DNA of 25,313 bases from NCBI GenBank assembly GCA_900546615.1, contig URDJ01000038.1, positions 1-25,313 of the forward strand, given 5' to 3'. The stretch comes from an uncultured Eubacteriales bacterium (GTDB taxonomy: Bacteria > Bacillota > Clostridia > Oscillospirales > Oscillospiraceae). This document shows, piece after piece, positions 103 to 16,706 of this stretch. How positions within the stretch are numbered: the stretch's first letter is position 1; each line of letters begins with the position of its first letter. The position numbers were made by a program, and so were the translations under genes. The notes under the pieces are model-generated. The model was not told the origin of the DNA. It was given only the letters and a program-made list of their open reading frames with translations, and made no database searches.

Positions 103-1842
103 TTACCAGGTGATGTCGTCCTCGAACTCGATGAGGCTCTCGTCCGTGGGCTCCGCCTGAATGATGGCGCGCATATAGTTCGTGACCTTGGCGCGCATGT
201 CGCGGCGGGAAACGGTACGCGGGTCCATGAGGTCGTGCTCGACCCAGATGAGGTGCAGTCCGCGCTCGCGTGCCTGCTCGTCGAACAGGCCCTGCAGGCC
301 CGCCATCGTCTTGCAGCACACGTGCTGGTACATGATGATGAAGTTCGCGTTGAACTGCTCGCACACCTTCCACAGCTCGTCCAGCACGTGGACGTAGCCG
401 CCGTTCGTGTGCTTGCGCATGACCATGCGCTCGTACAGCCTCGCAAGGTCGCGGATGGCCTCTTCCTTGTCGGTCGTATTCAGTTCCTTCGTGAAGTTCA
501 GGCTCTCCATCTCGACCAGCACGCCGATGCCCCAGGCGTTGGCCAGCCAGTTCGAGAAGTTCGCGTAGTAGTGGGCCGGGCAGCTCCAGACCACCGCGCG
601 GTACTTCATCGGATGACGGTAAGGATCGCACTTCTCCTCGTAGGACTGGAACATCAGCTTGCGGACCTTGTAGAAGGTCTTCATGACGCTCGGCTCCAGG
701 CCGCCGTCCATCTCGTAGTTCCACTTGCGGAACAGCTCGTAGCAGGGGCCGATCAGCTGCGGGTACGGGGTGGAGTTCATCTCCCACTTCTCCATCTCCA
801 TCTTCGTCTGCTCGTTGAAGCGGCGGATGACGGTGAAGTAGTGCTCCCAATCCCACTTCTCGCCGGTGATCTCCTCCACCCACTTGATGCAGTGCCACAT
901 ATCCTGCGCGCCGCACTCGACGGTGTCCTCATCGTCGTAGCGCACGGGCAGCGTGAGCGGGAAGGTCGGCAGCTTGAAGCGGCGGTCCTGATAGCTCGTC
1001 GCCATATCCGAGCCATCGCAGGGCGTCGAGGTCGAGATAAAGCCGAGGCCGCAGTGCGGCAGAGCGTCGAGGATGGCGCAGCCGCATTCGCTCGTCGGCA
1101 CCGGGCAGGTGTCAGACGGCAGGCCGTAGCTCTCGACCGCGTCGATATACGGAATGCAGATGAGCTGGTCGAGCTCGGAGACGAGGAACATCGGGATGAG
1201 CTGGTACGGGATACCGATGAGGCCCGGGAAACCGGCCATCATCTGAGCCATCGTCATCTCGTCGAACAGCATGAGCTTGTCGTTTATCTTGTCGTTGCCG
1301 CCGATGCGACGGTCGGCCATCAGCAGCGTGGCGATGACGTTCTCGACGTAGCGGTACACGTCGGCCAGCAGCAGGCGGTTCATCGTGACGGCCCTGCCGC
1401 GGTAGCCCAGCGTGTTGCGGTCGAAGAACGCGACGGACGCGAGGTAGGAGCTGAACCAGCGGTACTCAAACAGGCCCAGCGCTATGCTCATCGGGTCGCG
1501 CATGACCATCTTTATCATGTCCGCCCAGAGGATGAGCCAGTTCTGGAAGTCGCGGGCAGTGGACTCGACGCCCTTCCACTCGCGCCTCGTAAACGCTATG
1601 GAGCCCTTCTGGTACAGGCGGCCGAGCTGGCGCTCACCGTTTATGAACCTGTCCCACTTCTCCGCCGGGGAGAGCGCCACGAAGTCCTTCCACTCGCTCT
1701 GGATGCGCTCCTTGTCCATGCGCAGCTTATTGAGCTGCTTTTTCTTTACGTCCTTCCAGTCGATCTCGGAGATCATTTCCTTCCAGATCTTGAGGTCGCC
1801 GGGGACATTTTTCTTTATCCACTCAATATTGGTTTTAAGCAT
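103..1842 (-). CDS. 2-hydroxyacyl-CoA dehydratase-family protein, large (beta-like) subunit, 579 aa
   Basis: This is a member of the HgdB/BcrB/FldC-like dehydratase superfamily, whose two related subunits each carry iron-sulfur clusters and, after one-electron activation, remove water from 2-hydroxyacyl-CoA or reduce other difficult substrates. Visible features are a Cys-rich central block (C246, C253, C255, C264, C275, around SDTCPVPTSECGC), a second block at C421 (VVWSCPAHYY), and a C-terminal HVCCKTM motif (C509, C510) followed by an IWVEHDLMDPRTVSRRDMRAK segment, matching the end of the family fold. At 579 residues it is clearly longer than the roughly 330-440 usual for these subunits. 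The extra length is mostly a charged, Trp-rich N-terminal part of about 150-200 residues with no recognisable motif. The ATG is preceded by AAGGAGG and lies one base after the stop of the small subunit, so the two are probably translationally coupled. The substrate cannot be told from sequence. Confidence 0.82.
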   Translation of the reverse strand: MLKTNIEWIKKNVPGDLKIWKEMISEIDWKDVKKKQLNKLRMDKERIQSEWKDFVALSPAEKWDRFINGERQLGRLYQKGSIAFTRREWKGVESTARDFQNWLILWADMIKMVMRDPMSIALGLFEYRWFSSYLASVAFFDRNTLGYRGRAVTMNRLLLADVYRYVENVIATLLMADRRIGGNDKINDKLMLFDEMTMAQMMAGFPGLIGIPYQLIPMFLVSELDQLICIPYIDAVESYGLPSDTCPVPTSECGCAILDALPHCGLGFISTSTPCDGSDMATSYQDRRFKLPTFPLTLPVRYDDEDTVECGAQDMWHCIKWVEEITGEKWDWEHYFTVIRRFNEQTKMEMEKWEMNSTPYPQLIGPCYELFRKWNYEMDGGLEPSVMKTFYKVRKLMFQSYEEKCDPYRHPMKYRAVVWSCPAHYYANFSNWLANAWGIGVLVEMESLNFTKELNTTDKEEAIRDLARLYERMVMRKHTNGGYVHVLDELWKVCEQFNANFIIMYQHVCCKTMAGLQGLFDEQARERGLHLIWVEHDLMDPRTVSRRDMRAKVTNYMRAIIQAEPTDESLIEFEDDITW

Positions 1843-1843
1843 C

Positions 1844-3040
1844 TTATTTGACCTCCTTGCCCTGCTGGATGCGTTTAATCTCCAGGGATTCCACGAAGGC
1901 CTGGAAGCGGGTGCGGAGCTGTCCTGATGTCTTTGCGTTGTACGGCCTGTCGATCGTCAGCACCGGGTGACCGTAGTCCTCATACTGGATGTGGCTCGCC
2001 AGCGCGCGCTCGAAGCCCCAGAAGTCGCAGAACTTCACGTTCTCGTAGATGATGCCGTCGGCGTTGAACTCCTTCGCCAGACGGTCCGCGGTCTCGCGCC
2101 TCTGGAAGATCTTCTCGTCCGACATGAAGCGCGGACACTCGCTGGTGATGAGGTAGTGGCGGCAGATCTGCACGAGAGCGGGCTCCTCGTCGTTCAGCTC
2201 TATCACTTCCCTGCCCGGGAACACGCCGAAGCAGAAGCGGTCGAACGCTATGAACGCCCCTGCATCCTCCAGCATACGGGTCAGGTTGGGATCGTCCACC
2301 TCGGAGCCGACGATGCCCACACGGCAGCGGTACCAGGGCTTCGCATCCGGCTCGCGGGTCTTGATCTCCTCCAGAGTCTCCTGCAGATAGGGCAGTATCA
2401 GCCGTTGCGGGCAGCAGAAACTGACCATGTTGATGATGTGGAACTCATAGCCGGTCACAGGCGGATTGTCCAGCTTGCGCAGCTCGCTGATCTCCGTGAT
2501 GATGCGGCAGATCTCATTGTGCCTCTGCACGGCCTCGCGCAGGGCGGCGTCGGAGATGTCCACGCCCAGCTTCTCGTGCATGACGTTCAGCACCCTGTTC
2601 TGCATCTGCGTCACATAGTGCTTGAGCGTGTAATCCGTATACTTATAAGGTATGTCCGCGTGGGTGACGAAGAAGTTCGGCTTGTCGATGCACTTGAGCA
2701 GCTCGATGTTCTCCATGCAGCGGTTCATCTGCGCGCAGGCGTCAACACCGCAGATGCCGTCCAGGAAGTTGTAGCCGCCCTCGATCGCCCTCTCGACCAG
2801 CGCGCGGCAATATTCACATGTGTAGTTAGACATGTAATAAGAGGCCACGTCTATGCTTCCGGTATTGGGAGCGCGCATCCTGACCGAGAAGCAGTTGTCT
2901 ACATTGAGAAGCACTTCCGGCATGTGATAGCAGGTGAAGCCCAGCGCCAGCTGGCCCTCCTCCTTCGCCTTGCGTATAAGCTCGTTATGCGCATCGTCCA
3001 GCAGGTTCTCAAAGTAGATCAGATGCTTAAGATCTTTCAA
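1844..3040 (-). CDS. 2-hydroxyacyl-CoA dehydratase-family protein, small (alpha-like) subunit, 398 aa
   Basis: This is the partner subunit of the dehydratase-type enzyme. Family landmarks are GFTCYHMPEVLL at residues 34-45 (C37, the usual first cluster ligand region), YTCEYCRALVERA with C75 and C78, and LDGICGVDACAQMNRC at about 93-108. The later VGIVGSEVDDPNL segment is typical of the C-terminal half. The length is normal for the family. The start is a TTG at 3040: it has a GAGAGGTG ribosome binding site about seven bases upstream, there is no in-frame ATG before residue 39, and the frame upstream soon hits a stop. It sits 15 bp downstream of the CooC-like gene and one base before the large subunit. 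It could be a true 2-hydroxyacyl-CoA dehydratase or one of the less understood double-cubane-cluster reductases of the same superfamily. I cannot separate these by eye. Confidence 0.82.
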   Translation of the reverse strand: MKDLKHLIYFENLLDDAHNELIRKAKEEGQLALGFTCYHMPEVLLNVDNCFSVRMRAPNTGSIDVASYYMSNYTCEYCRALVERAIEGGYNFLDGICGVDACAQMNRCMENIELLKCIDKPNFFVTHADIPYKYTDYTLKHYVTQMQNRVLNVMHEKLGVDISDAALREAVQRHNEICRIITEISELRKLDNPPVTGYEFHIINMVSFCCPQRLILPYLQETLEEIKTREPDAKPWYRCRVGIVGSEVDDPNLTRMLEDAGAFIAFDRFCFGVFPGREVIELNDEEPALVQICRHYLITSECPRFMSDEKIFQRRETADRLAKEFNADGIIYENVKFCDFWGFERALASHIQYEDYGHPVLTIDRPYNAKTSGQLRTRFQAFVESLEIKRIQQGKEVK

Positions 3041-3055
3041 ATGTTTACACCTCTC

Positions 3056-3823
3056 TTATAAAATCTCTATTCTTCGGAGCGCTTCCCTCACTCCGTAGAG
3101 GACCTTGGACCCAGCGGGAAGTTCGAACACGCTCTTCCCCTGGATGTCGTTTGCAGCATGGCTGTCGTCCGCTTCTATGAACGCCAGTATCTCCACGCCC
3201 GCTATCTTGATATACTCGTTCAGCTCCGGGTTCGTCACCCGGTTTATTATAGCGCCGATGTGGTCGTACATCACGAGCTCGTCCGCGACCTCCTTGATGG
3301 TCTCCGCAACATGAGTACCCTTCCGGCTCTGGTCCGATATGAGTATCAGGTGCGTTACCTTCTCCATGACGCGACGTTGGATCTGCTCTATCCCGGCCTC
3401 GCCGTCTATCACAACGTAGTCGAAGTCGCCCGCCAGCATACTGACGACCTCCTTCAAATACGCATTCACGCTGCAATAGCAGCCCTCGTTCTCAGGCCGG
3501 CCGATCGCAAGAAACGAAAAGCCGTTTGTCTCGACCATCGTGTCGAAGATCCTGAACCGGGACTCGTTGAGCATCTCGATAGCCTCCCTGGGCCGGCCGT
3601 CCTCCGCGCTCTTTATCACCGCACGGCGGATGTCGTCCAGAGACGATGTGACCTTTACCCCCAGCGCCGTCGAAAGCCCGACGGCCGGGTCGGCGTCTAT
3701 CGCCAGGATCCTCGCGCCCGGTCTGTCCTCCGTGAGCACACGCACTATCGTGGCCGCAAGCGACGTCTTCCCCACGCCGCCCTTGCCCGCAAGGGCTATT
3801 ATCCTGGCCTGTCCTTCGCCCAT
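3056..3823 (-). CDS. CooC-like P-loop ATPase (MinD/Mrp superfamily, nickel-insertion type)
   Basis: This 255-residue cytoplasmic ATPase belongs to the SIMIBI/MinD group. It has a deviant Walker A GKGGVGKTS at residues 13-21 with the signature lysine, an IDADP motif at about 42-46, and a VVIDGEAGIE switch/Walker B segment at about 137-146. A CYC motif at residues 115 and 117 matches the CxC that binds nickel at the dimer interface of CooC, the ATPase that helps insert nickel into CO dehydrogenase. The ATG at 3823 is preferred over an in-frame TTG one codon earlier because AGGGGG lies seven bases upstream of it. No CO dehydrogenase gene is in view. Instead it leads an operon of two dehydratase subunits and an activase and diverges from two nickel-type genes. 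The likely role is ATP-dependent metal or cluster insertion, but the client protein is inference. Confidence 0.85.
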   Translation of the reverse strand: MGEGQARIIALAGKGGVGKTSLAATIVRVLTEDRPGARILAIDADPAVGLSTALGVKVTSSLDDIRRAVIKSAEDGRPREAIEMLNESRFRIFDTMVETNGFSFLAIGRPENEGCYCSVNAYLKEVVSMLAGDFDYVVIDGEAGIEQIQRRVMEKVTHLILISDQSRKGTHVAETIKEVADELVMYDHIGAIINRVTNPELNEYIKIAGVEILAFIEADDSHAANDIQGKSVFELPAGSKVLYGVREALRRIEIL

Positions 3824-3876
3824 CAACTACCCCCTCTCGTATTTGTTAAAGAGCAACGAACGCTTGACAATAAGTT

Positions 3877-4583: not shown

Positions 4584-6197
4584 TCATGTCAGGCCCTCTG
4601 CGCGCTCGAGGGCCGCGCGCGTGAAGGCGGCGAACAGCGGGTGGGGCCTGTTGGGCCGTGACTTGAACTCCGGGTGGAACTGCACGCCGACGAAAAAGCG
4701 CTCGCCCGTCAGCTCCACCGCCTCCACCAGCCTGCCGTCCGGCGACAGGCCGCTGAGACACAGGCCCTTTGCCTGAAGGGTCTCCCGGTAATCGTTGTTG
4801 AACTCGTAGCGGTGCCGGTGGCGCTCGGTTATCACTCGCTCGCCGTAGCAGCGGTACAGCGTCGTGCCATCGGCGATGACGCAGGGGTAACCGCCGAGGC
4901 GCAGGGTGCCGCCCTTGTCCACGCTTTCGCTCTGGCCGGGCATGAAGTCGATGACCCTGTGAGGGCTGTCCGGGTCGAACTCCCCGGAGTTTGCGCCCTC
5001 GAGCCCCGCCGCGTCGCGCGCGAACTCGATTACCGCCACCTGCATGCCGAGGCAGATGCCGAAGTACGGCACGTGGTTCTCCCTCGCGTACCGCGCCGCG
5101 GCGAACATGCCCTCCGTGCCCCGGCAGCCGAAGCCGCCCGGCACGATGATCCCGTCCAGCTCCCTGAGGAGCTCCGTGCCGTCCGGCCGCTCCAGCTCCT
5201 CGGCGTCTATCCAGTCTATGTCCACCCGCGCATCCTGTGCCCAGGCCGCGTGCCGCAGCGCCTCGGCGACGGAAAGATATGCGTCGTGCAGCTTCACATA
5301 CTTGCCGACCAGCCCTATCCTCACCCGCCTGCGCGGTGAGCGCATCCGCTCCACCATCGCGCGCCACTCGGCGAGGTCCGGCTCCGGCGCCGCAAGCCCC
5401 AGCTCCCGGCATACCACCCGCGCAAGGCCCGCCTCCTCGAGCATCAGCGGCGCCTCGTAGAGGTTCGGCAGGGTGACGTTGCCTATGACGCAGTCCTCGG
5501 CCACGTTGCAGAACCCGGCCACCTTGCGGAAGATCGCCCTGTCCTCTATGGGCTCGTCGCTCCTGAGCACGATGATGTCCGGCGAGACGCCGAGGCCCTG
5601 CAGCTCCTTGACCGAATGCTGGGTCGGCTTGGACTTGTGCTCGCCCGAGGCGCGCAGATAGGGCACCAGCGTGACGTGGATATAGAGCGCGTTGCCGCGC
5701 CCGGCCTCGCGCCCGATCTGCCGTATGGCCTCGATGAAGGGCTGGCCCTCGATGTCCCCGATGGTGCCGCCTATTTCGGTTATGAGCACGTCCGCTCCCG
5801 TGCGTTCGGCCAGGGCGCGGATGCTGCCCTTTATTTCGTCGGTTATGTTCGGGATGGTCTGCACGGTGCTGCCGAGGTACTCGCCTCGCCGCTCCTTCTG
5901 GATGACACTGGAGTACACCCGTCCGGTGGTGAGATTCGAGAGGCTGTTGAGGTCCTCGTCTATGAAGCGCTCGTAGTGGCCGAGGTCGAGGTCGGTCTCA
6001 GCCCCGTCCGTGGTGACGTATACCTCGCCGTGCTGGTAGGGGCTCATGGTGCCCGGGTCCACGTTTATGTAGGGGTCCAGCTTCTGCGCCGCGACCTTGA
6101 GGCCGCGCGCCTTCAGGAGCCTGCCCAGCGAGGCAGCCGTGATGCCCTTGCCGAGTCCCGATACCACACCGCCCGTGACGAAAATGTGCTTTGTCAT
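4584..6197 (-). CDS. pyrG: CTP synthase
   Basis: This enzyme makes CTP from UTP, ATP and glutamine-derived ammonia in the cytoplasm. The 537-residue length is standard. The N-terminal amidoligase domain begins [18 protein letters not shown], the family's nucleotide-binding loop, and contains [19 protein letters not shown] (about 41-59) and [14 protein letters not shown] (about 141-154). The C-terminal class I glutamine amidotransferase domain has FGICLGMQ with nucleophile C382 and a late [10 protein letters not shown] carrying the His-Glu pair. The ATG has GGGAGG upstream. It is the last gene of a glnA - ANTAR regulator - pyrG unit, 16 bp after the regulator. This places a major glutamine consumer under whatever controls glnA. 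Confidence 0.97.
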
Positions 6198-6213: not shown

Positions 6214-6798
6214 TCATTCGTAGGTCTTTATCAGGTTGGAGGCCAGCTCGCGCTTGGAGACGCGCTGGTCCATGGCCTGTTTTTCTATGTATTTGTGCGC
6301 CTCGGCCTCTGTCATGCCGAGCCGCTCTATGAGGAGCCACTTGGCACGGTTCACGAGGCGTATCTCCTCTATCTTGTCTTCGACCGTGGCCTGGCGCTCC
6401 TCCATCCTCCGAAGCCGCTCGCGCGTGGCGCATAGCACGCGCAGGGACTGGCGTATTACCTGCACCGAGCTGGGTTTCGACACCGTGAGCACGCCGTACT
6501 CCGTCACCTTGGAGCACACGTCCTCGTAGAGCGCGGCCTTCACAAAAAGCAGCACCCCCGCGCCGGATTCGAGACATATGCCCGTGGCGAGGCGCACGCC
6601 GAAGTCGTCCGGCAGCGGCGAGTTTATGAGCACGAGGTCGTACTCCGTCTCGAACAGCCTGCGCCGCGCCTCGCTCACGCTGCCCGCGAAGTCCACCGGC
6701 CAGAAATCGGTCATGGGCAGGTGCGTGCGCATGGCGGTATTGAATTTTTCCGAGGCGGATACGACGAGCACGCCGTAGGTACGCTCGCTGAACACCAT
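6214..6798 (-). CDS. ANTAR-domain RNA-binding antiterminator with receiver-like domain (NitR-like)
   Basis: This 194-residue protein has an N-terminal receiver-like domain (residues 1 to about 120), a coiled-coil-like stretch rich in R/E (about 123-145), and a C-terminal ANTAR domain (about 140-190) with the typical [34 protein letters not shown] pattern spread over 146-182. ANTAR domains bind RNA hairpins and stop intrinsic termination. The usual phosphoacceptor aspartate of the receiver appears to be Asn ([12 protein letters not shown] around 54-65), so phosphorylation may not be the switch. It lies 42 bp downstream of glnA with a G-rich ribosome binding site, the arrangement of NitR in solventogenic clostridia. 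The two glutamine synthetase leaders nearby carry candidate target hairpins. The RNA-binding role is family knowledge; the targets are inferred. Confidence 0.88.
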
Positions 6799-6840: not shown

Positions 6841-8055
6841 TCAGTGCCTGTAATACGCTCTGGCTATGGAGACGTGCAGATGCTTTGCAATGAACTCGCT
6901 GGCCTCGGCCGCGGCCGCCGCCTCTGAAAGCGAGGCCGGGAGCCGCCTGTAGGCCGAGAGCACCTCCGGCGGCGCGGTATAGAGGTTCATGTCCGCGGGC
7001 TCGGGCAGGATGAGCCGGTTTTCTATGCCGTGCAGACCGGCGTAGATGAGCAGCGCGCAGGCGATATAGGGGTTCGCCATGGGGTCGGCCGAGCGCAGCT
7101 CCGCCCGCTTAAACTCGCCCTGCGCCGCGGGGATGCGTATGAGCTGGGAGCGGTTCTCGCTCGACCAGCTGATATACCTCGGAGCCTTGAAGCTGCCGAG
7201 CCGCGCGTAAGAGGCCTCGCATGGATTCAAAAAGACGGTCATGTCGTAGATCTTGTCGAGCACGCCGGCGATGACATAGGGCAGCGGGTCGCATCCGTCC
7301 ACCTTACCCTTCACGGACATGTTGATGTGCAGGCCGCTGCCGGCGCTGTCCGGGAGGGGCTTCGGCGTAAAATCCGCGCACAGGCCGTTGCGCGCCGTCA
7401 CCGTGCGCACGACGGAGCAGAAGGTCACGGCGTTGTCCGCAGCCTGCAGGGGGTCCGAGTAGCGGAAGTCTATCTCGTTCTGGCTGGGGCCTTCCTCGTG
7501 GTGGCTGCTCTCCGGGCGGATGCCCATCTGCTCGAGCGTGAGGCATATCTCCCGCCTGATGCTCTCTCCCCTGTCCTCCGGCGCGGCGTCCATGTAGCCG
7601 GCGTGGTCGTAGGGTATGCGGGTCGGCTCGCCGTTCTCGTCCCGCTTGAAGATGTAAAACTCCATCTCCGAGCCGAAAGCGAAGCTGAACCCGGCCTTTT
7701 CCGCATCCTTCACGGCCGCGCGCAGCAGGGCGCGGGTGTCGGTCTCGAAGGGCTTGCCGTGCGGATACCTTATATCACAGTAGAGCCGCACGACTTTGCC
7801 GTTCTCCGGCCGCCAGGGCAGCTCTGCAAGCGTCTCCGGGTCGGGATGCAGAAACAGATCCGAGCGCACCTCGCCGCCGAAGCCCGGCACCGCCGAGGCG
7901 TCGATTGCTATGCCCGAGCGGAAGGCCCGCTCAAGCTCCGAGCCCATGATCGTCACGTTCTTCTGCCTGCCGTACACGTCGCAGAACGCCAGGCGCACGA
8001 ACTTCACGTTTTCCTCTTTTGCGTACTGTATTATCTCCTCAGCTGTGTATTTCAC
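6841..8055 (-). CDS. glnA: glutamine synthetase type I
   Basis: This enzyme makes glutamine from glutamate, ammonia and ATP. Visible landmarks are the N-terminal beta-grasp VKYTAEEIIQYAKEENVKF, the FGSEMEFYIF glutamate-metal motif, EGPSQNEIDFRY, DSAGSGLHINMS, and the NRSQLIRIP phosphate-binding loop. I choose the GTG at 8055, giving 404 residues. It aligns with the usual family start (M-KYTAEEI), has GGAAAGG about 11 bases upstream, and lies after a strong leader terminator. An open frame extends to another GTG at 8112, but that codon is inside the terminator loop and the added residues look like a translated leader. The protein is somewhat shorter than the classical 440-470. It heads the glnA - ANTAR regulator - pyrG unit and diverges from a type III synthetase. 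Confidence 0.93.
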   Translation of the reverse strand: MKYTAEEIIQYAKEENVKFVRLAFCDVYGRQKNVTIMGSELERAFRSGIAIDASAVPGFGGEVRSDLFLHPDPETLAELPWRPENGKVVRLYCDIRYPHGKPFETDTRALLRAAVKDAEKAGFSFAFGSEMEFYIFKRDENGEPTRIPYDHAGYMDAAPEDRGESIRREICLTLEQMGIRPESSHHEEGPSQNEIDFRYSDPLQAADNAVTFCSVVRTVTARNGLCADFTPKPLPDSAGSGLHINMSVKGKVDGCDPLPYVIAGVLDKIYDMTVFLNPCEASYARLGSFKAPRYISWSSENRSQLIRIPAAQGEFKRAELRSADPMANPYIACALLIYAGLHGIENRLILPEPADMNLYTAPPEVLSAYRRLPASLSEAAAAAEASEFIAKHLHVSIARAYYRH

Positions 8056-8086
8056 GTCGAATCCGACCTTTCCGGCTGATAAAATC

Positions 8087-8150
8087 AAAAAATCGAGGAA
8101 AGCATCCGGCACCTGTCCCTCACTCCGAATGAACTTCCTCGTTCACCCGG
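8087..8150 (-). promoter_or_regulatory. glnA leader attenuator: terminator versus xAGGAx-loop antiterminator hairpin
   Basis: The minus-strand RNA can form a terminator. CGAGGAA (8141-8135) pairs perfectly with UUCCUCG (8100-8094), CAUUCGG (8131-8125) pairs with CCGGAUG (8109-8103), and six U follow at 8092-8087. Alternatively 8150-8141 pairs with 8134-8125 in a 10-bp stem closing the hexaloop GAGGAA (8140-8135). This uses up the 5' arm of the terminator, so the two folds exclude each other. Two pairs of the alternative stem are G-U only in the minus-strand RNA, arguing for function on this strand. The predicted start site, near 8146, leaves most of that stem in the transcript. The hexaloop hairpin is a likely ANTAR target. 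Confidence 0.82.
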
Positions 8151-8152
8151 TG

Positions 8153-8181
8153 ACTTTACCACATGGACGACCGTTTGTCAA
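8153..8181 (-). promoter_or_regulatory. sigma-A-type promoter of glnA
   Basis: On the minus strand TTGACA (8181-8176) and TAAAGT (8158-8153) are separated by 17 bp. The -35 is perfect. Transcription from about 8146 would begin at the foot of the leader hairpin. Confidence 0.82.
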
Positions 8182-8223
8182 CGGCGACTTTTGACTAATG
8201 TGCTGATTTTTGCAATTGCCGTC

Positions 8224-8252
8224 TTGACAAATTGCACTAGGTGGCTTATATT
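8224..8252 (+). promoter_or_regulatory. sigma-A-type promoter of the glnN operon
   Basis: TTGACA (8224-8229) and TATATT (8247-8252) are separated by 17 bp, so transcription should start near 8259. The 42 bp between this and the divergent glnA -35 box contain an 8-bp palindrome GCAATTGC at 8212-8219, a possible but unproven protein site. Confidence 0.83.
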
Positions 8253-8258
8253 GTTCGC

Positions 8259-8311
8259 GTTGTACGGCAAGGACGCCCAGGCAATATACCTGAGGCATCC
8301 CTGCCTTTTTT
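8259..8311 (+). promoter_or_regulatory. glnN operon leader attenuator with AAGGAC hexaloop
   Basis: A terminator-like hairpin spans 8266-8305: GGCA/TGCC, GGA/TCC, GCC/GGC and CAGG/CCTG helices stack with single mismatches and one bulged A around a CAATATA loop, followed by six T at 8306-8311. Its 5' arm can instead fold as GGC (8266-8268), loop AAGGAC (8269-8274), GCC (8275-8277), with possible outer pairing of 8259-8262 to 8282-8285. The loop has A at position 1 and G at position 4, the known ANTAR-target pattern, and shares AGGA at positions 2-5 with the glnA leader loop. The alternative stem is short, so this attenuator is less certain than that of glnA. Confidence 0.72.
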
Positions 8312-8336
8312 ATTTTTCAGAAAAGGTGTGAGCGGA

Positions 8337-10430
8337 ATGAAGACAGTCCCCGAGTATTTTGGATGTATGGTGTTTGACGACAGGGCCATGAGAGCGAGGC
8401 TCCCCGGCTGGGTCTGCGATTCCCTGAGGGAGACCATAGAAGCCGGGCGTCCGCTCAACCAGAACGTGGCCGACGAGGTGGCCAAGGCGATGAAGGACTG
8501 GGCGGTGGAGCGCGGCGCGACGCATTTCACCCACTGGTTCCAGCCGATGACAGGCATCACGGCCGAGAAACACGACAGCTTTATAAGCTCCGCGCCGGAC
8601 GGCGGCGTGCTGATGGAGTTTTCGGGCCGCGAGCTTATACAGGGCGAGCCGGACGCATCGAGCTTCCCCTCCGGCGGCCTGCGCGCGACCTTCGAGGCGC
8701 GCGGCTACACCGCCTGGGACCCGACGAGCTACGCCTTCATAAAGGGGCATACGCTCTGCATCCCCACGGCCTTCTGCTCCTACGGCGGCGAGGCTCTGGA
8801 CAAAAAGACGCCGCTTCTGCGCTCCATGGACGCCCTCTCGCGCGAGGCGCTGCGCGTTCTGCGGCTCTTTGGGAACACCGAAACACTGCGGGTCGTGCCC
8901 TCCGTCGGGCCGGAGCAGGAGTATTTCCTGATAGACAAGGAGATGTTCAAAAAGCGCCGCGACCTCGTGTGCACGGGCCGGACGCTATTTGGCGCGCGCC
9001 CGCCCAAGGGCCAGGAGCTGGACGACCACTACTTCGGCAGCATCAAGCCGAGAGTCGAGGCCTACATGAAGGAGCTGGACGAGGAGCTTTGGAAGCTCGG
9101 CGTGCTGGTGAAGACCGAGCACAACGAGGTAGCCCCGGCCCAGCATGAGCTGGCGCCCATATACGGTGCGGCGAACGTCGCCACGGACCACAACCAGCTC
9201 ACGATGGAGATAATGCAGAAGGTCGCGGCAAAGCACGGCCTGGCCTGCCTGCTGCACGAAAAGCCCTTTGCGGGCGTGAACGGCTCGGGCAAGCACAACA
9301 ACTGGTCGATTACCACCGACACGGGCCTGAACCTCCTCTCGCCGGGCGATACGCCGCACGAAAACGCGCAGTTCCTCACCTTCCTGTGCGCGGTCATCGA
9401 GGCCGTGGACGAATATCAGGACCTGCTCCGCCTCGCCGTGGCCACGGCGGGCAACGACCACCGTCTGGGCGCTAACGAGGCCCCGCCGGCCGTGGTCTCC
9501 ATCTTCCTCGGCGACGAGCTGACAGCCATACTCAAGGCGATCGAGGCCGACGTGCCCTATTCCGCCGCGGAGCGCAGCCAGATGCGTCTCGGCGTGGACA
9601 CCCTGCCGCGCTTCCAGAAGGATACGACCGACCGCAACCGTACCTCGCCCTTCGCCTTCACGGGCAACAAGTTCGAGTTCCGCATGCTCGGCTCGTCCAA
9701 CTCCATCGCCTGCGCGAACATCATGCTCAACTCCGCCGTTGCCTCGGTCCTGCGCCGTTACGCGGACGCGCTCGAGGGCGCTGAGGACTTCGACGCCGCC
9801 CTGCACGCGCTCATCCGCAGCGTTATCGCCGCCCACAAGCGCATCATCTTCAACGGCAACGGCTACGACGCGGCATGGCTGCATGAGGCGGAGCGCCGCG
9901 GCCTCTCCGACCTGCGCACGACGCCCGACTGCATGCCAAGGCTGCTGGATAAGAAGAACATCGGCATGCTCACCTCCCTCGGCGTCTACACCGAGGCAGA
10001 GCTGCGCTCGAGGTATGAGATCATGCTCGAGAACTACTGCAAGACGGTGAACATCGAGGCCCTGACGATGGCTGACATGGCGAAGAAGGACATCCTGCCG
10101 GCCGTCGAGGCATACGCCGCCGAGGTCGCAAGGGGCGCCGCCGCGAAGCGCTCGCTCGACCCGGACTGCCCCTGCGCCTGTGAGCGCGGGCTGGTGCGCC
10201 GGCTCTCCGCGCTCTGCGACTCCATTGCCGCAGACACCGAGGCACTCGAGGACGCCCTGCTCCGGCTGCACGACACAGAGGACGTCACTGCCGAAAGCTG
10301 CGCCATACGCGACGACCTGCTCCCGCGCATGCGCGAGCTGCGCGCCGCCGCCGACGAGGCCGAGAGCATCACCGCCGCGAAGTTCTGGCCCTACCCGACC
10401 TACAGCGAGCTGCTCTTCAGCGTGGGATAA
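8337..10430 (+). CDS. glnN: glutamine synthetase type III
   Basis: This 698-residue enzyme is of the GSIII (GlnN) class, unrelated in length to the type I enzyme encoded divergently, and also makes glutamine from glutamate and ammonia. Recognisable segments are [16 protein letters not shown] at the start, THWFQPMTG, the [10 protein letters not shown] metal-site motif, [33 protein letters not shown], and [16 protein letters not shown], all hallmarks of GSIII. The ATG at 8337 is preceded by AAAAGGTG. A GTG in the same frame at 8241 is rejected because it lies upstream of the promoter's -10 box. It opens a five-gene plus-strand operon with asnB 11 bp downstream. Two glutamine synthetases from one control region suggest tuning to different nitrogen states; that is inference. 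Confidence 0.96.
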
Positions 10431-10441
10431 GGAGGTAAAAT

Positions 10442-12064
10442 ATGTGCTCCATTATGGGATACTGCGGCCCAGCGCCGGATATGCCCGCCTTTGAAGCGGG
10501 CTTCGAGCGCACAAAGTCGCGCGGGCCGGACGACAGCCGCGTCGTCGCGTTCGACGACGGCGTCCTCGCCTTCCACCGCCTCGCCATCATGGGCCTCGAG
10601 CCGAGCGGCATGCAGCCCTTCGAGCTGGACGGCAGCCGCGTGGTCTGCAACGGCGAGATCTACGGCTTTGAGAAGATAAAAGCGGAACTTTCCACCAAAT
10701 ACAACTTTAAAAGCGGCTCCGACTGCGAGGTATTGCTTCCTCTCTGGAAGGAATACGGCACGGATATGTTCAAAATGCTCGACGCGGAGTTCGCGCTCGT
10801 CCTCTACGACGGCGACACGCACGAGTTTGTCGCGGCGCGCGACCCCATAGGCATCCGCCCGCTGTTCTACGGCTATGACGCCGGCGGCAGCATTGTGTTT
10901 GCGAGCGAGGCGAAAAACCTCGTCGGCCTCGTGGAAAAAGTAACTCCCTTCCCGCCCGGCTGCTTCTGGCGCGGCGGTGAGTTCACCCGCTACGCCGACC
11001 CCGGTGAGGTCACGGAAGTGGTGAGCGGCACGGAGGACGAGGTCTGCGCGGGCATACGCGAACGGCTCGTCAGGGCCGTGGAGAAACGCCTCGTCTCGGA
11101 CGCGAAGGTGGGCTTCCTCCTGAGCGGCGGGCTGGACTCCTCGCTCGTCTGCGGCATAGCGGCGCGGCTCACGGGCAAGAGGATACGCACCTTCGCCATA
11201 GGCATGAGCGGCGACGCCATCGACCTCGGCTACGCCCGCGAGGCAGCGGACTTCCTCGGCAGTGAACACACGGAAGTCGTCGTGCCGGTCAAAGAGGCCG
11301 TCGCCGCCCTGCCCGAGGTCATAGCAGCCATCGGCAGCTACGATATCACCACCGTCCGGGCCAGCATAGGCATGTACCTCGTCTGCAAGGCCATACACGA
11401 GCAGACGGACGTGCGCGTCCTGCTCACGGGCGAGGTCTCCGACGAGCTTTTCGGCTACAAGTACACGGACTTCGCGCCCTCGGCGGAGGAATTCCAGCGC
11501 GAGGCGCAAAAGCGCGTGCGCGAGCTGTATGCCTACGACGTGCTGCGCGCCGACCGCTGCATCTCGGTACACTCGCTCGAGGCGCGGGTGCCCTTCGGCG
11601 ACCTGGACTTTGAGCGCTACGTCATGGCCCTGGACCCGGAGCTCAAAATGAACCGCCACGGCGTGGGCAAGTACCTGCTCCGCCGCGCCTTCGACGGCGA
11701 GGGCCTCATCCCTGACGACATACTCTGGCGCGAGAAAGCCGCCTTTTCCGACGCCGTGGGCCACTCGCTGGCCGACAACCTCAAGGCCCTCGCCGAGCGC
11801 ATGTACTCCGACGCGGACTTTGAGCGCAAACGCAAAAAATACACCTTTGCGCAGCCCTTCACGAAGGAATCACTGCTCTACCGGGAGATATTCGAGCGTT
11901 ACTACCCCGGCCAGGCGCAGATGATACCCGGCTTCTGGATGCCGAACCGGAGCTGGGAAGGCTGCGACGTGGGCGACCCCTCGGCCCGGTTCCTCGCGAA
12001 CTACGGTGCGAGCGGCAAAAGCATTGAAAATATGGAGGAAGCAAAATGTCTAACTGCGCGGTAG
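10442..12064 (+). CDS. asnB: asparagine synthase (glutamine-hydrolysing)
   Basis: This 540-residue enzyme makes asparagine from aspartate, ATP and glutamine. The N-terminal class II amidotransferase domain starts MCSIMGYCG with Cys2 as the catalytic nucleophile and contains SRGPDD (26-31), HRLAIMG (45-51), CNGEIY (69-74) and ARDPIGIRPLFYG (132-144). The synthetase domain has the PP-loop SGGLDSS at 228-234, then GEVSDELFGYK and SVHSLEARVPFGD motifs. An AAGGAGG ribosome binding site precedes the ATG. Its 3' end overlaps the purA start by 19 bp in another frame, pointing to coupled translation. It is a second glutamine-dependent enzyme placed directly behind glutamine synthetase. Confidence 0.95.
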   Translation: MCSIMGYCGPAPDMPAFEAGFERTKSRGPDDSRVVAFDDGVLAFHRLAIMGLEPSGMQPFELDGSRVVCNGEIYGFEKIKAELSTKYNFKSGSDCEVLLPLWKEYGTDMFKMLDAEFALVLYDGDTHEFVAARDPIGIRPLFYGYDAGGSIVFASEAKNLVGLVEKVTPFPPGCFWRGGEFTRYADPGEVTEVVSGTEDEVCAGIRERLVRAVEKRLVSDAKVGFLLSGGLDSSLVCGIAARLTGKRIRTFAIGMSGDAIDLGYAREAADFLGSEHTEVVVPVKEAVAALPEVIAAIGSYDITTVRASIGMYLVCKAIHEQTDVRVLLTGEVSDELFGYKYTDFAPSAEEFQREAQKRVRELYAYDVLRADRCISVHSLEARVPFGDLDFERYVMALDPELKMNRHGVGKYLLRRAFDGEGLIPDDILWREKAAFSDAVGHSLADNLKALAERMYSDADFERKRKKYTFAQPFTKESLLYREIFERYYPGQAQMIPGFWMPNRSWEGCDVGDPSARFLANYGASGKSIENMEEAKCLTAR

Positions 12065-13320
12065 TGGGAATAAACTGGGGTGACGAGGGCAAGGGCCGCA
12101 TGGTAGACCTGCTCACGGCGGATTACGACGTGGTGGTGCGCTATCAGGGCGGAGGCAACGCCGGGCACACGGTGGTGAACGAGCGCGGCAAATTCGCGCT
12201 GCATCTGCTGCCCTCGGGCATCTTCCGGGCCGGGGTCGTGAACGTCCTCGGCCCCGGCGTGGCGCTCGACCTGCAAAGCCTCTCGGAGGAAATAGCCCAG
12301 GTGCGGGCCGGCGGAGTTGACATAACATCAGACAACCTCATGATAAGCGACAGGGCGGGCCTGCTCCTGCCCTGGCACAGGGAGCAGGACGCGCTGGAGG
12401 AGGCGCGGCTGGGCGCGCACAAGTTCGGCTCGACGGGTCAGGGCATAGCGCCCTTTTACTCGGATAAGTACCAGAAAAAGACACTGCAGGCGGGAGACCT
12501 CAACTATCCCGAACAGTTCAGGGAGCGACTCGCAGAGCTGCTCGAATGGAAGAACCTGACGCTCACGCGCGTCTATGGCGCTAAGGGCCATACGCTGGGC
12601 GAGCTGATGGACTGGGTAGAGCGCTATGCCGAGCCGCTCCTGCCCTTCATACGCGACACGGGCCGCTTCCTCGACTCTGCGGCGGCCTCGGGCAGGAGCA
12701 TACTCTTTGAGGCCCAGCTGGGCGCCCTGCGCGACCTTGAGCACGGCATCTGCCCCTATACGACCTCGTCCAACACCCTCGCGGCCTACGCCCTCATGGG
12801 CAGCGGCATGGCGCGGGGGAGTTTGGACGAGGTCGTCGGCGTCGTCAAGGCCTACTCGACCTGCGTTGGCGAGGGGCCGTTTGTGTGCGAGTGGTTCGGC
12901 CCGGAGGCGGAGACGCTCCGGCGCGCGGGCGCGGAGTACGGCGCGAAGACGGGCCGGCCCCGGCGCGTGGGGCCAATAGACCTCGTTGCGACGCGCTGCG
13001 GCGTGAGGCTCCAGGGCGCGACAAAGCTCGCGCTCACGAAGCTCGACGTACTCGGCTACATGGACAGGGTACCGCTCTGCGTGGGCTACGAGATAGACGG
13101 AGTCGAATCGAGGGATTTCCCCTTCCCCGCCGCTCTTACGAAGGCGAAGCCGGTCATAGAGTACATGGACGGCTGGCTCTGCGACATTTCGAAGGCCCGG
13201 AAATGGACCGACCTGCCCCTTGCCGCCCGTCGCTACGTGCGCAGGATAGCCGAGGAGACGGGCTGCCCCATCGGCTGGGTATCGGTCGGCGCGGGCCGGG
13301 ACGAATACATCAGGCTCTGA
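12046..13320 (+). CDS. purA: adenylosuccinate synthase
   Basis: This 424-residue enzyme joins IMP and aspartate using GTP, the first step from IMP to AMP. The N-terminal GINWGDEGKGRMVDLL loop and GGGNAGHTVV motif are the family's GTP/IMP site, and a late KLALTKLDVLG segment is the usual guanine-recognition strand. Several central motifs differ from the Escherichia coli-type enzyme. FGSTGQGIAPFYSDKY stands where TTGRGIGPAY is common, and RRVGPIDLVATR where RRCGWFD is common. This resembles a clostridial branch of PurA rather than a broken gene. The ATG lies inside asnB, preceded by GGAGGAAG. It is the only enzyme of the operon that does not itself use or make glutamine, but it shares IMP with GuaA's pathway. 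Confidence 0.92.
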   Translation: MSNCAVVGINWGDEGKGRMVDLLTADYDVVVRYQGGGNAGHTVVNERGKFALHLLPSGIFRAGVVNVLGPGVALDLQSLSEEIAQVRAGGVDITSDNLMISDRAGLLLPWHREQDALEEARLGAHKFGSTGQGIAPFYSDKYQKKTLQAGDLNYPEQFRERLAELLEWKNLTLTRVYGAKGHTLGELMDWVERYAEPLLPFIRDTGRFLDSAAASGRSILFEAQLGALRDLEHGICPYTTSSNTLAAYALMGSGMARGSLDEVVGVVKAYSTCVGEGPFVCEWFGPEAETLRRAGAEYGAKTGRPRRVGPIDLVATRCGVRLQGATKLALTKLDVLGYMDRVPLCVGYEIDGVESRDFPFPAALTKAKPVIEYMDGWLCDISKARKWTDLPLAARRYVRRIAEETGCPIGWVSVGAGRDEYIRL

Positions 13321-13336
13321 GCGGAAAGGAGAGCAT

Positions 13337-15163
13337 ATGTGCGGCATAACAGGCTTCACGGGCAAAAGAGAGGCGGCGCCGGTGCTGCTGGACGGCCTTC
13401 GGGCGCTGGAATATCGCGGCTATGACTCGGCCGGCATCGCCATCATGGGCGAGGACGGCCTCGAGCTGGCGAAGACGAGCGGGAGGATAGACAGCCTCTG
13501 CGAGCTGACGGATAACGGCAGGGCGCTGCGCGGTCGTTCAGGCATAGGCCACACCCGCTGGGCTACGCACGGCGCGCCGACGGACTTAAACGCCCACCCG
13601 CATGTGAGCAACGACGGGCGTTTCGCCGTCGTGCACAACGGCATCATCGAAAACTACCGCAGCCTGCGCGACGAGCTTATCCGGCGCGGCTGCACCTTCG
13701 CGAGCGAGACGGACACGGAGGTCATCGTCCACCTGCTTGAGACCTGCTATACCGGCGATTTGAAGGAAGCGGTCATGCGCACTACTGCGCGGCTCGAGGG
13801 CAGCTACGCGCTGGGCATCGTCTGCTCCGATGCGCCGGGCACGCTCTACGCCGTGCGGGAGTCCAGCCCTCTCATACTGGGCCTCGGCGTGGGCGAGAAC
13901 TACTTCGCCTCCGACGTCACGGCGCTGGTGGCGCACACGAAGAACGCGGTGTTCCTCGAGGACGGGCAGTTCGCACAGCTGCGGCCCGAGGGCGTGACGG
14001 TATTCGACTGCGCGGGCAGGCCGGTACAGGCCGAGGTCACGCGCATAGAGTGGGGCGTAGAGGCCGCGGAGAAGGGCGGCTACGAGCACTTCATGCTCAA
14101 GGAGATCATGGAGCAGCCCCGGGCGGTGAGGGCCGCACTCGAACCGAGGCTGCGCGGCGGCGGCATCGAGTTCGAGGAGCTGGGCATCAGCGACGAGGCG
14201 CTCGGGCGGATACGCTCCGTCGTCATCACCGCCTGCGGCTCGGCATATTACGCGGGCTGCGTGGGCAAGAAAGCGCTCGAGCGGCTCTGCCGGGTGCCCG
14301 TCACCGCCGAGCTGGCCAGCGAGCTGAGGTACTCCGACCCGCTCATCGGGCCCGACACGCTGGTCATAGCGCTCTCGCAGTCAGGCGAGACGGCGGACAC
14401 CCTCGCAGCAGCGAAGGAGTGCAAGGCCCGGGGCGCGAGGCTGCTTGCAATCGTGAACGTCGTGGGCAGCAGCCTCGCAAAGCTCGCGGACGACGTGGTG
14501 TACACGCGCGCCGGGCCGGAGATCGCCGTTGCCTCTACCAAGGGCTACACGACGCAGGTGGCCGTCATCTGCGCCCTCGCGGCCCACTTCGCGCAGAGGC
14601 TGGGCCGGATAAGCGCCGGTGAGCTGAACGCGCTGGCCTCCCGGCTCTACTATATCCCCGACGCCATACAGAGGGCCATAGACATGAACCGCGCCCTGCC
14701 CGCGCTGGCGAGTAAATACTGTCTGGGCGACGCGCTGTACTATATCGGACGCGGCGTGGACAGCGCCGTGGCGCTCGAGGCGGCGCTGAAGATGAAGGAG
14801 ATATCGTACAACCACTCGGAGGCCTACGCCGCGGGCGAACTCAAGCACGGCACTATAGCACTCATAGACGAGGGCACGCCGGTCGTCGCGCTCTGCTGCC
14901 GCGAGGAGCTGATGGAGAAGATGGTGAACGCCATCGAGGAGGTCAAGGCGCGCGGCGCGAAGGTGCTGGCCGTGGCGCTGGCCGGGAACCGGCGCATCCT
15001 CTCGGCGGCGGACGACGTCATTTTTATCCCGCGCACCGACCCGGTCTTCGACGCCGTGGCAGAGATAGTCCCGCTGCAGCTGCTGGCCTATTACGCGGCG
15101 CGGGAGAAGGGCTGCGACATAGATAAGCCCAAGAACCTCGCGAAATCCGTAACTGTCGAGTGA
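13337..15163 (+). CDS. glmS: glutamine-fructose-6-phosphate aminotransferase (isomerizing)
   Basis: This 608-residue enzyme makes glucosamine-6-phosphate from fructose-6-phosphate and glutamine, the entry to peptidoglycan and amino-sugar synthesis. The N-terminal class II amidotransferase domain starts MCGITGFTG (Cys2 nucleophile), with LEYRGYDSAG and GHTRWATHG. Two SIS sugar-isomerase domains follow, with TACGSAYYAG, ALSQSGETADT and STKGYTTQ, then an EISYNHSEAYAAGELKHG segment. The C-terminus KNLAKSVTVE is the invariant family ending that covers the active site. The ATG has AAGGAG upstream and follows purA by 16 bp. No glmS ribozyme fits in that gap, so control probably comes from the operon leader. 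Confidence 0.97.
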   Translation: MCGITGFTGKREAAPVLLDGLRALEYRGYDSAGIAIMGEDGLELAKTSGRIDSLCELTDNGRALRGRSGIGHTRWATHGAPTDLNAHPHVSNDGRFAVVHNGIIENYRSLRDELIRRGCTFASETDTEVIVHLLETCYTGDLKEAVMRTTARLEGSYALGIVCSDAPGTLYAVRESSPLILGLGVGENYFASDVTALVAHTKNAVFLEDGQFAQLRPEGVTVFDCAGRPVQAEVTRIEWGVEAAEKGGYEHFMLKEIMEQPRAVRAALEPRLRGGGIEFEELGISDEALGRIRSVVITACGSAYYAGCVGKKALERLCRVPVTAELASELRYSDPLIGPDTLVIALSQSGETADTLAAAKECKARGARLLAIVNVVGSSLAKLADDVVYTRAGPEIAVASTKGYTTQVAVICALAAHFAQRLGRISAGELNALASRLYYIPDAIQRAIDMNRALPALASKYCLGDALYYIGRGVDSAVALEAALKMKEISYNHSEAYAAGELKHGTIALIDEGTPVVALCCREELMEKMVNAIEEVKARGAKVLAVALAGNRRILSAADDVIFIPRTDPVFDAVAEIVPLQLLAYYAAREKGCDIDKPKNLAKSVTVE

Positions 15164-15179
15164 AACTGGAGGATACAAG

Positions 15180-16706
15180 GTGGAAAAGATACTGGTCATA
15201 GACTTCGGCGGGCAGTACGCGCTGCTCATAGCCCGGCGCGTGAGGGAGCTGGGCGTGTACGCGGAGATAATGAGCTGGCGCGCCGCCTCGCCCGAGCGCA
15301 TAGCGGCTGCGGGCTGCTCGGGCATCATCCTCACGGGCGGGCCGCAGAGCGTGCCGGAGCCGTCCTCGCCCAAGTGCGCGCGCGGGGTGCTGCACCTCGG
15401 CGTGCCGGTGCTGGGCATCTGCTACGGCTGCCAGCTCATGGCGTATCTCGAGGGCGGCGAGGTCGGCTCCGCCGGGGCCTCGGGCGAGTACGGCGGCGTG
15501 ATGCTGAGCGCCTCCGACAGTGCGCTGTTCCAAGGCTGCGCCGGGGAGAGCGAGTGCTGGATGAGCCACACGGACATGGTGCTCGCGCCGCCCGCGGGCT
15601 TCAAGGTCACGGCGAGCACGGGAAAATGCCCCGTCGCGGCCATGGAAAACGGCGAGGCGAGGCTCTACGGCGTGCAGTTCCACCCTGAGGTGACTCATAC
15701 GGAGCGCGGGCGGGAGATACTGCGGAATTTTCTCTACGATATCTGCGGCTGCGAGGGCAGCTGGCATATGGACGCCTGCGCGCAGAGGCTCATAGAGCGT
15801 TACCGCACTGAGCTTGCGGGCAGACATGCGCTCTGCGCCCTGAGCGGCGGCGTGGACTCGGCCGTCGCGGCGGCGCTGCTCGAGCGGGCCATGGGCGGGC
15901 GGCTGCACTGCGTGTTTGTGGACCACGGCCTGCTGCGCGAGGGCGAGGCCGAGCTGGTCGAGCGCACGTTCCGTGGCAGCAGCGGCCTGGATTTCGTGCG
16001 TGTGGACGCGAAGGAACGCTTTTTGGGGAAACTGCGGGGCGTTACGGAGCCGGAAATGAAGCGGCGCATCATAGGCGAGGAATTCGTGCGCGTGTTCGAG
16101 GCCGAGGCGGAGCGGCTCGGGAATCCGGAATATCTGGTGCAGGGCACGATCTACCCGGACGTGGTGGAGAGCGGCACGGGCGAGGCGGCGAAGATAAAGA
16201 GCCACCACAACGTGGGCGGGCTGCCGAGCGACATGGCCTTCAAGGGCGTGGTGGAGCCATTGCGCGAGCTGTTCAAGGACGAGGTGCGCGCACTGGGGCG
16301 CGAGCTGGGCCTGCCGGAGGCGCTTGTGAGCCGCCAGCCCTTCCCCGGCCCTGGGCTTGCGGTGCGGGTCATCGGCGAGGTAACGGAGGAGCGGCTGAGG
16401 GTCCTGAGGCGCGCGGACGCGATATTCCGCGAGGAGGTGGATAAGCTGCCGGAGCGCCCGAGCCAGTATTTTGCGGTGCTGACGGATACGCGGAGCGTGG
16501 GCGTGCGCGGCGACGCAAGGAGCTGGGGCGAGACGGTGGCGCTGCGTGCGGTGACGACGGACGATTTCATGACGGCGGACTGGACGCGCCTGCCGCTGGA
16601 GGCGCTCTCCCGAGCATCGGAGCGCATCACAGGCGAGCTGCCGGAGGTCTCAAGGGTGGTCTACGATATCACGAGCAAACCCCCTGCCACGGTGGAATGG
16701 GAATGA
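15180..16706 (+). CDS. guaA: GMP synthase (glutamine-hydrolysing)
   Basis: This 508-residue enzyme converts XMP to GMP with ATP and glutamine. The N-terminal class I amidotransferase domain has GICYGCQLMAY with nucleophile C81 and VQFHPEVTHTE with H168 and E170. The ATP-pyrophosphatase domain has the PP-loop SGGVDSA at 222-228. The C-terminal dimerisation domain has RQPFPGPGLAVR and ends DITSKPPATVEWE, the normal family terminus. The start is a GTG at 15180 with GGAGG seven bases upstream, 16 bp after glmS. It is the last gene of the glnN operon. The only hairpin downstream is the inverted repeat at 16781-16815. Confidence 0.97.
   Translation: MEKILVIDFGGQYALLIARRVRELGVYAEIMSWRAASPERIAAAGCSGIILTGGPQSVPEPSSPKCARGVLHLGVPVLGICYGCQLMAYLEGGEVGSAGASGEYGGVMLSASDSALFQGCAGESECWMSHTDMVLAPPAGFKVTASTGKCPVAAMENGEARLYGVQFHPEVTHTERGREILRNFLYDICGCEGSWHMDACAQRLIERYRTELAGRHALCALSGGVDSAVAAALLERAMGGRLHCVFVDHGLLREGEAELVERTFRGSSGLDFVRVDAKERFLGKLRGVTEPEMKRRIIGEEFVRVFEAEAERLGNPEYLVQGTIYPDVVESGTGEAAKIKSHHNVGGLPSDMAFKGVVEPLRELFKDEVRALGRELGLPEALVSRQPFPGPGLAVRVIGEVTEERLRVLRRADAIFREEVDKLPERPSQYFAVLTDTRSVGVRGDARSWGETVALRAVTTDDFMTADWTRLPLEALSRASERITGELPEVSRVVYDITSKPPATVEWE

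Follow-up and report, generated by a model that had tools for sequence, protein, structure and literature searches.

Divergent glnA and glnN of an uncultured Oscillospiraceae bacterium are preceded by probable single-hexaloop attenuators of the ANTAR type

The window (the whole stretch of DNA analysed, 25,313 nucleotides) carries two glutamine synthetase genes as divergent neighbours, glnA on the minus strand and glnN on the plus strand, within the following gene context.

4584–6197, minus strand: pyrG, CTP synthase
6214–6798, minus strand: gene of an ANTAR protein (degenerate receiver, coiled coil and ANTAR domain)
6841–8058, minus strand: glnA, type I glutamine synthetase, with a presumed GTG start
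8337–10430, plus strand: glnN, type III glutamine synthetase
10442–16706, plus strand: asnB, purA, glmS and guaA, close-packed 3′ of glnN

The pyrG gene begins 16 nt past the ANTAR gene, and the two are probably in one transcript. On the other side, asnB, purA, glmS and guaA come after glnN, overlapping or no more than 16 nt apart, and are possibly, through a presumed co-transcription, under the glnN attenuator described below; since three of these four genes use glutamine, one leader may govern its synthesis and use together. GlnA is short (405 aa) and scores 317 bits against an NCBIfam GlnA cut-off of 429, but the protein is conserved in relatives. Near the edge of the window (103–3826, minus strand) stand, in tandem, two 2-hydroxyglutaryl-CoA dehydratase D-component-like proteins and a ParA/NifH-like ATPase.

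Between the two synthetase genes, each leader can be described by a promoter, a short hairpin and an intrinsic terminator.

8224–8252, plus strand: glnN promoter (−35 box TTGACA at 8224–8229, 17-nt spacer, −10 box TATATT at 8247–8252)
about 8259, plus strand: predicted glnN transcription start, placed from spacing
8266–8277, plus strand: putative glnN antiterminator hairpin GGC-AAGGAC-GCC, hexaloop at 8269–8274
8266–8317, plus strand: glnN intrinsic terminator (stem 8266–8305, U-rich run 8306–8317)
8153–8181, minus strand: glnA promoter (−35 box TTGACA at 8181–8176, 17-nt spacer, −10 box TAAAGT at 8158–8153)
about 8146, minus strand: predicted glnA transcription start, placed from spacing
8129–8146, minus strand: putative glnA antiterminator hairpin GUGAAC-GAGGAA-GUUCAU, hexaloop GAGGAA at 8140–8135
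8087–8141, minus strand: glnA intrinsic terminator, CGAGGAAG (8141–8134) with CUUUCCUCG (8102–8094), then a U-run to 8087

In DNA letters, the glnA terminator pairs CGAGGAAG (8141–8134) with CTTTCCTCG (8102–8094), followed by ATTTTTT to 8087, and thereby takes up the hexaloop and one base of the hairpin 5′ stem. At its longest, the glnA hairpin reaches from 8150 to 8125, an extension that requires a transcription start upstream of 8146, while the stem of the glnN hairpin is limited to 3 bp in the window, against 4 bp in the relative L001. Folded from the predicted starts, the terminator is the lower-energy structure on both sides (glnN: −22.3 vs. −14.0 kcal/mol for the hairpin; glnA: −19.3 vs. 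−13.2 kcal/mol; equilibrium values); in the untrimmed glnA leader, the hairpin beat the terminator by 1.5 kcal/mol, an order that trimming to the predicted start reverses. The folding z-score is −3.39 for the glnN leader and only −1.10 for the glnA leader, so that folding energy alone does not single out the latter. A covariance model built without the window and L001 recovers the window glnN element (23.3 bits, E = 0.0037 in 37,895 bases). An alternative glnN hexaloop, ACGGCA, was weighed by eye and dropped, the relatives backing AAGGAC. The analysis confirms what the initial annotation had read in the two leaders, i.e., an intrinsic terminator overlapped by a hexaloop hairpin (GAGGAA for glnA, AAGGAC for glnN), and the G-U pairs that it considered possible in the minus-strand RNA of the glnA alternative stem are present.

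Relatives were collected by scanning genome contigs with an ANTAR alignment, which yielded 79 loci, mostly from metagenome-assembled Oscillospiraceae and other Clostridia. In 76 of these loci, fewer than 400 nt separate the end of glnA from the ANTAR gene, and glnN is divergent to glnA and the ANTAR gene in all 36 loci where it was found; the initial annotation likewise places NitR of clostridia next to glnA. Among the 37 corresponding glnN leaders (the window and 36 relatives), 36 have a hairpin of at least 3 bp with an RNNGNN loop at a fixed promoter distance, the loop beginning 9–22 nt after the −10 box and 51–238 nt upstream of the start codon; the 37th (L021) has the hairpin too, with a promoter beyond the cut. 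By eye, hexaloop leaders are also found before glnA in the window and 11 relatives. Others precede a three-gene glutamate synthase operon running into glnA (L004, L005 and L019, with a Pfam check for L005 only) or pyrG, which has its own hexaloop leader in six loci (L002, L031, L057, L061, L065 and L066). In yet other relatives, such as L012, L017 and L026, the element stands before glnN and none was seen before glnA.

In a census of the 37 glnN leaders free of any loop-sequence filter, 28 had a six-base loop on the best alternative hairpin in the terminator 5′ arm, with G at position 4 in every case (a further loop, in L074, is a recoding artefact and was excluded). The other nine divide into five 4-base loops, one 7-base loop, one 9-base loop and two leaders with none; by eye, the 4-base loops of L041, L046 and L073 are hexaloops in which positions 1 and 6 were counted as a pair, and in others of the nine the terminator uses the 3′ arm instead. 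Covariation was examined on 36 glnN leaders (set A5), taken as the 78 nt after the best promoter, chosen by promoter score regardless of hairpins and then aligned, one row (L074) being visibly misaligned. In this set, the hexaloop helix (five pairs) is paired in 96.1% of cells vs. 89.6% in shuffled alignments (0/500 as high), with double changes at three of the five pairs and a covariation of 0.231 vs. 0.109, while the terminator (12 pairs, same 5′ strand) is paired in 89.8% vs. 77.5%, with a covariation of 0.423 vs. 0.197; slid versions of these helices score far lower. Judged by pair types or doubly changed pairs, the hexaloop helix beats the shuffles weakly (22–23 of 500) and the terminator does not, and for all these tests it holds that related sequences may exceed shuffles without any structure. 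An earlier set (A2), which required pairing in both helices together with A/G at position 1 and G at position 4 and was biased towards its result (96.0% vs. 86.3% and 92.9% vs. 80.0% shuffled), is superseded by A5. Of the covariation check that the initial annotation had proposed for both leaders, the glnN part was run on promoter-chosen leaders, where hairpin and terminator covary.

For the wider comparison, we assembled a list of 66 elements from filtered scans and by eye, omitting near-duplicates and including a hairpin before a glmS-like gene (L024). The overlap between hairpin and terminator is kept in 65 of the 66 (the exception being L024) despite shifts in the register of the terminator, which may use the 5′ arm, the loop or the 3′ arm. 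As in published ANTAR targets, the hexaloop hairpin is mutually exclusive with the terminator. The latter is the lower-energy fold in all 59 start-trimmed leaders with a placeable start and terminator (equilibrium values) and in 64/66 untrimmed leaders, the window glnA leader being among the exceptions. Attenuation by mutually exclusive hairpins, as initially proposed, is supported by these start-trimmed energies and by the covariation of both helices.

Across the relatives, the loop rule is roughly R-N-N-G-R-Y, its determinant being a purine at position 1, G at position 4 and usually a pyrimidine at position 6. The initial annotation had instead put forward a shared xAGGAx hexaloop: AGGA (positions 2–5) is indeed common to both window loops, but by chance, as it is not conserved in relatives, where positions 2 and 3 vary freely, which rules it out as the determinant. 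Of its more general rule, A at position 1 and G at position 4, G4 is present in both loops, and A1 in the glnN loop, the glnA loop having G1, against the published A1 rule. Position 1 is A in 51 and G in 15 of the 66 listed elements; because the list was filtered for A/G at position 1 and G at position 4, its counts at these two positions are not evidence for them. Pyrimidine-1 loops are rare (0/69 glnN leaders, and 2 with G4 vs. 46 purine-1 loops in a scan of 147 leaders), and position 6 is a pyrimidine in 62/66 listed elements, a rule broken by the window glnA loop (G..A). A1-U6 loops in the wider set weaken the case for an isosteric exchange of A-C and G-U between positions 1 and 6 (Fisher p = 0.002).

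The two loop classes are unevenly distributed in a hand-picked list, G1 loops occurring on 10/14 glnA or glt leaders and 4/39 glnN leaders, and A1 loops on 35/39 glnN leaders. Among 14 divergent pairs compared by eye, one from the window and 13 from relatives, 13 have A1 on one side and G1 on the other, L041 having two A1 loops. In one related group (L018, L033 and L034), the assignment is swapped between glnN and glnA, probably in a single event, so the A1/G1 pairing pattern is suggestive only.

The position of the element leaves space for a single hairpin. The promoter match is good in 60 of the 66 listed elements, and in 58 of them the loop begins 12–17 nt downstream of the −10 box (21 and 58 nt in the others), which leaves no room for a first hairpin. 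Assuming a start seven bases after the −10 box, the RNA ahead of the loop is 6–11 nt long (15 nt in a single case among 59 elements), and no second RNNGNN hairpin was found upstream of the loop in any of the 59. Downstream RNNGNN hairpins occur in 10/66 listed elements vs. 4.5 expected from shuffles, nine of the ten being, by eye, the terminator 3′ arm or an inner hairpin. The two tandem hairpins of published ANTAR targets are therefore not seen here, and the initial suggestion of one hairpin per leader rather than the classical two is borne out by the lack of upstream hairpins and the fixed promoter distance.

Four glnN leaders (L160, L165, L167 and L176) contain, by eye, a series of two hexaloop attenuators with one terminator each, the loops being 65–169 nt apart in the three leaders with two flagged loops (in L167, the second was recognized by eye). 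This arrangement is different from the published tandem dual hairpin and possibly gives a steeper response. The glnN leader L187, with two hexaloops 57 nt apart and a single evident terminator, may represent a relaxed variant of the dual hairpin.

The association with ANTAR genes was studied on an order-wide set of 295 genomes, with ANTAR in 167, a type III synthetase in 261 and matches to a covariance model (R1, strict filters) in 28. From these, 69 glnN leaders were sampled, i.e., 30 top loci, 30 without and nine with ANTAR, taken roughly in rank order and skipping second copies in G041, G018 and G144 as well as the ANTAR-bearing genomes G199, G153 and G105; both copies of G060 were used, so the 33 ANTAR-bearing leaders come from 32 genomes, and two sampled leaders were known beforehand to carry the element (L160, with ANTAR, and L218, without). 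The RNNGNN attenuator is present in 23/33 leaders with ANTAR vs. 3/36 without (Fisher p = 1.9e-7, the genomes being related); 10 of the 33 are without the element. Control scans of the 69 leaders gave 1/33 and 2/36 when position 4 was not G and none in either group for pyrimidine-1 loops, and shuffled leaders gave 0/345 for the narrower RNNGRY form. On a tree of the type III synthetase, 13 path-disjoint pairs have the element only in the ANTAR-bearing member in seven cases, only in the other member in one, in both in one and in neither in four; this tree-independent association of seven to one is not significant (p = 0.07). The three leaders with an element and no ANTAR match in the genome are L197, L209 and L218, of which L209 (G166) and L218 (G290) look like true elements; laxer ANTAR searches in these two genomes returned nothing above the cut-off, and assembly gaps may explain such leaders. 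ANTAR is found in 25 of the 28 genomes with model matches, the others being G082 and G242 (plain terminators by eye) and G290. In the genome closest to the window (G001), as assembled, the one ANTAR protein above the cut-off is the neighbour of glnA. The link to ANTAR made in the initial annotation is supported by this co-occurrence.

The element also stands before other genes in the order, namely glutamate synthase, pyrG, gdhA, amt, asnB, purC and amidase-type genes. The R1 model returned 33 rows, 30 of them with an inspected locus, and Pfam was run on the nine that were not glnN: 23 of the 30 combine a hexaloop with a nitrogen or glutamine gene next to it (glnN 14, pyrG 2, gdhA 2, and one each of asnB, amt, purC, amidase and carbon-nitrogen hydrolase), the elements of the last two genes having a stem of 3 bp only, and the remaining seven are plain hairpins by eye. 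Many members of the order appear to use single 5′-end hexaloops for much of their ammonium and glutamine metabolism.

The window ANTAR protein scores 62.2 bits against PF03861 (curated cut-off 27.3). Its residue N59 occupies the alignment column of the phospho-acceptor Asp in Rv1626 and EutV, and all 18 aligned sequences (window included) have Asn there; the Asp characteristic of REC-ANTAR response regulators is absent, which makes ordinary phosphorylation unlikely as the signal and suggests an input that does not come from a histidine kinase. A PDB search returned Rv1626 first by E-value (TM 0.56), and the model of the window protein fits RNA-bound EutV with a TM of 0.78 (3.6 Å, 194 alignment columns), the best among ANTAR proteins. 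With the two-residue offset in the PDB chain taken into account, the EutV residues E160, M172, K149 and R175 are kept (E164, M176, K153 and R179 in the window protein), E160 and K149 being described as contacting G4 and M172 as the plug (PMC8934654), whereas Y164 is changed to His (as in AmiR), R142 to Ile, R168 to Glu, N173 to Asp and R177 to Ser. ANTAR-like proteins of 30–36% identity also occur in three unannotated human-faecal ‘Bacteriophage sp.’ records (MT837336.1, MT837649.1 and MT836393.1), which may be host contigs.

Could these leaders work without a protein reader, their terminators setting a fixed read-through and the hexaloop being a by-product? We hold this to be improbable: a terminator-like helix is present in every element and the hexaloop stem is partly the terminator stem, some pairing being shared, yet loop position 4 stays G though its partner could covary (paired with C in 35/36 leaders of set A5, the odd row being the misaligned L074), while positions 2 and 3 do covary with their terminator partners (17/36 and 14/36 doubly changed). 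Moreover, the presence of the element tracks ANTAR genes, and the overlap with the hairpin is kept in all listed leaders but L024 while the terminator register shifts.

An inverted repeat at the start site might also be a DNA operator for a repressor, as short palindromes at +1 to +20 are in typical operator positions and the −10 spacing is fixed. This reading is put in serious doubt by a strand test on 147 leaders, in which promoter-proximal hexaloops were scanned with A-C pairs admitted as readily as G-U pairs. The inner stems of the 46 distinct purine-1 G4 elements contain 15 G-U and no A-C pairs (p = 6e-5), which indicates that the sense RNA is under selection; the same scan returned 20 purine-1 loops in which position 4 is not G (a threefold larger class), and two (G4) and seven (not G4) pyrimidine-1 loops. 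Besides, the loops are asymmetric, only 1/66 being self-complementary, and compensated terminator pairing spans the element, so that an operator is very improbable. Less probable still is a riboswitch, T-box or leader-peptide attenuator sensing glutamine or charged tRNA. Glutamine-binding RNAs do stand in glutamine synthetase leaders of other bacteria, but no Rfam family reaches its gathering score in the window, the sole lax match in a leader being to an unrelated lncRNA (E = 1.9), and the few nucleotides before the loop are too little for an aptamer or an ORF.

We therefore consider it highly probable, on the strength of sequence comparisons, that both leaders are antitermination attenuators of the ANTAR type read by the ANTAR protein encoded after glnA. 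Transcription would start a few bases upstream of the hairpin and, by default, the nascent RNA would pass into the more stable terminator and stop before glnA or glnN. When active, the ANTAR protein would grip the single hexaloop as it emerges, through purine-1 and a flipped-out G4, and the gripped hairpin would withhold the strand needed by the terminator, so that the polymerase reads through; binding, read-through and nitrogen limitation as the signal are what we infer from the features above. On the glnA side, the circuit would be self-reinforcing, because the ANTAR gene sits in the glnA operon. A more specific proposal, which we regard as speculative and rather doubtful, is a phosphorylation-independent ANTAR protein acting on single 5′-end hexaloops whose A1 (usually C6/U6) and G1 (usually U6) classes set different affinities. 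If true, these classes would make the two synthetases respond in order to a single nitrogen signal, and glutamine synthetase itself would perhaps restrain the ANTAR protein.

The receiver of AmiR from Pseudomonas aeruginosa is not known to be phosphorylated. This protein (1qo0) is ANTAR by sequence and fold, carries His at the G4-stacking position like the window protein, and is controlled by a partner, AmiC, as the title of the 1qo0 entry indicates. NitR of Clostridium saccharobutylicum is an ANTAR protein said to induce GS/GOGAT cycle genes by antitermination on nitrogen limitation, antisense RNAs being also mentioned for that system (PMC6316151).

The EutV/eut system of Enterococcus faecalis shares with the window a hexaloop with G4, a short stem exclusive with an intrinsic terminator and the same REC-ANTAR fold (PMC3369931, PMC8934654). 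In contrast, EutV is described as phosphorylated at Asp54, where the window protein has Asn, and eut RNAs as needing both of two tandem hairpins, whereas the window leaders have one at the RNA 5′ end. Published ANTAR targets are described as tandem pairs of hairpins of which the second overlaps the terminator (PMC3369931, PMC8934654, PMC8164766), and as this feature is lacking, we file the present elements as a variant of ANTAR antitermination outside the dual-hexaloop class. In eut, deletion of the first hairpin abolished induction (PMC3369931), and single P1, single P2 and the pair bind comparably (6.0, 3.1 and 3.8 uM; PMC8934654); antitermination in vitro was lost when the linker between the hairpins was lengthened (PMC8934654), so that the sufficiency of one hairpin is not a given.

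ANTAR-target RNAs have been described before nitrogen genes in Desulfotomaculum, Pelobacter and others, where the regulons likewise cover glutamine and glutamate synthases, ammonium transport and more, the targets coming from a dual-hairpin model that is probably blind to single hexaloops (PMC3369931). That nitrogen genes, glutamine and glutamate synthases among them, are attenuated through ANTAR is already in print (PMC3369931). Our search of the open-licence literature, subscription papers lying outside its reach, found no single-hexaloop glnN or glnA leaders. The present system is set apart from known ones by a single 5′-terminal hexaloop, by loops of the G1 class and by a receiver that lacks Asp. 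Walshe et al. describe one hexaloop as the minimal ANTAR site and leave open the extent of its natural use (PMC8934654); the consensus, tight geometry and natural variants reported here offer material for asking whether one hairpin suffices, and the single-hexaloop design may be why searches based on dual hairpins would overlook the regulon.
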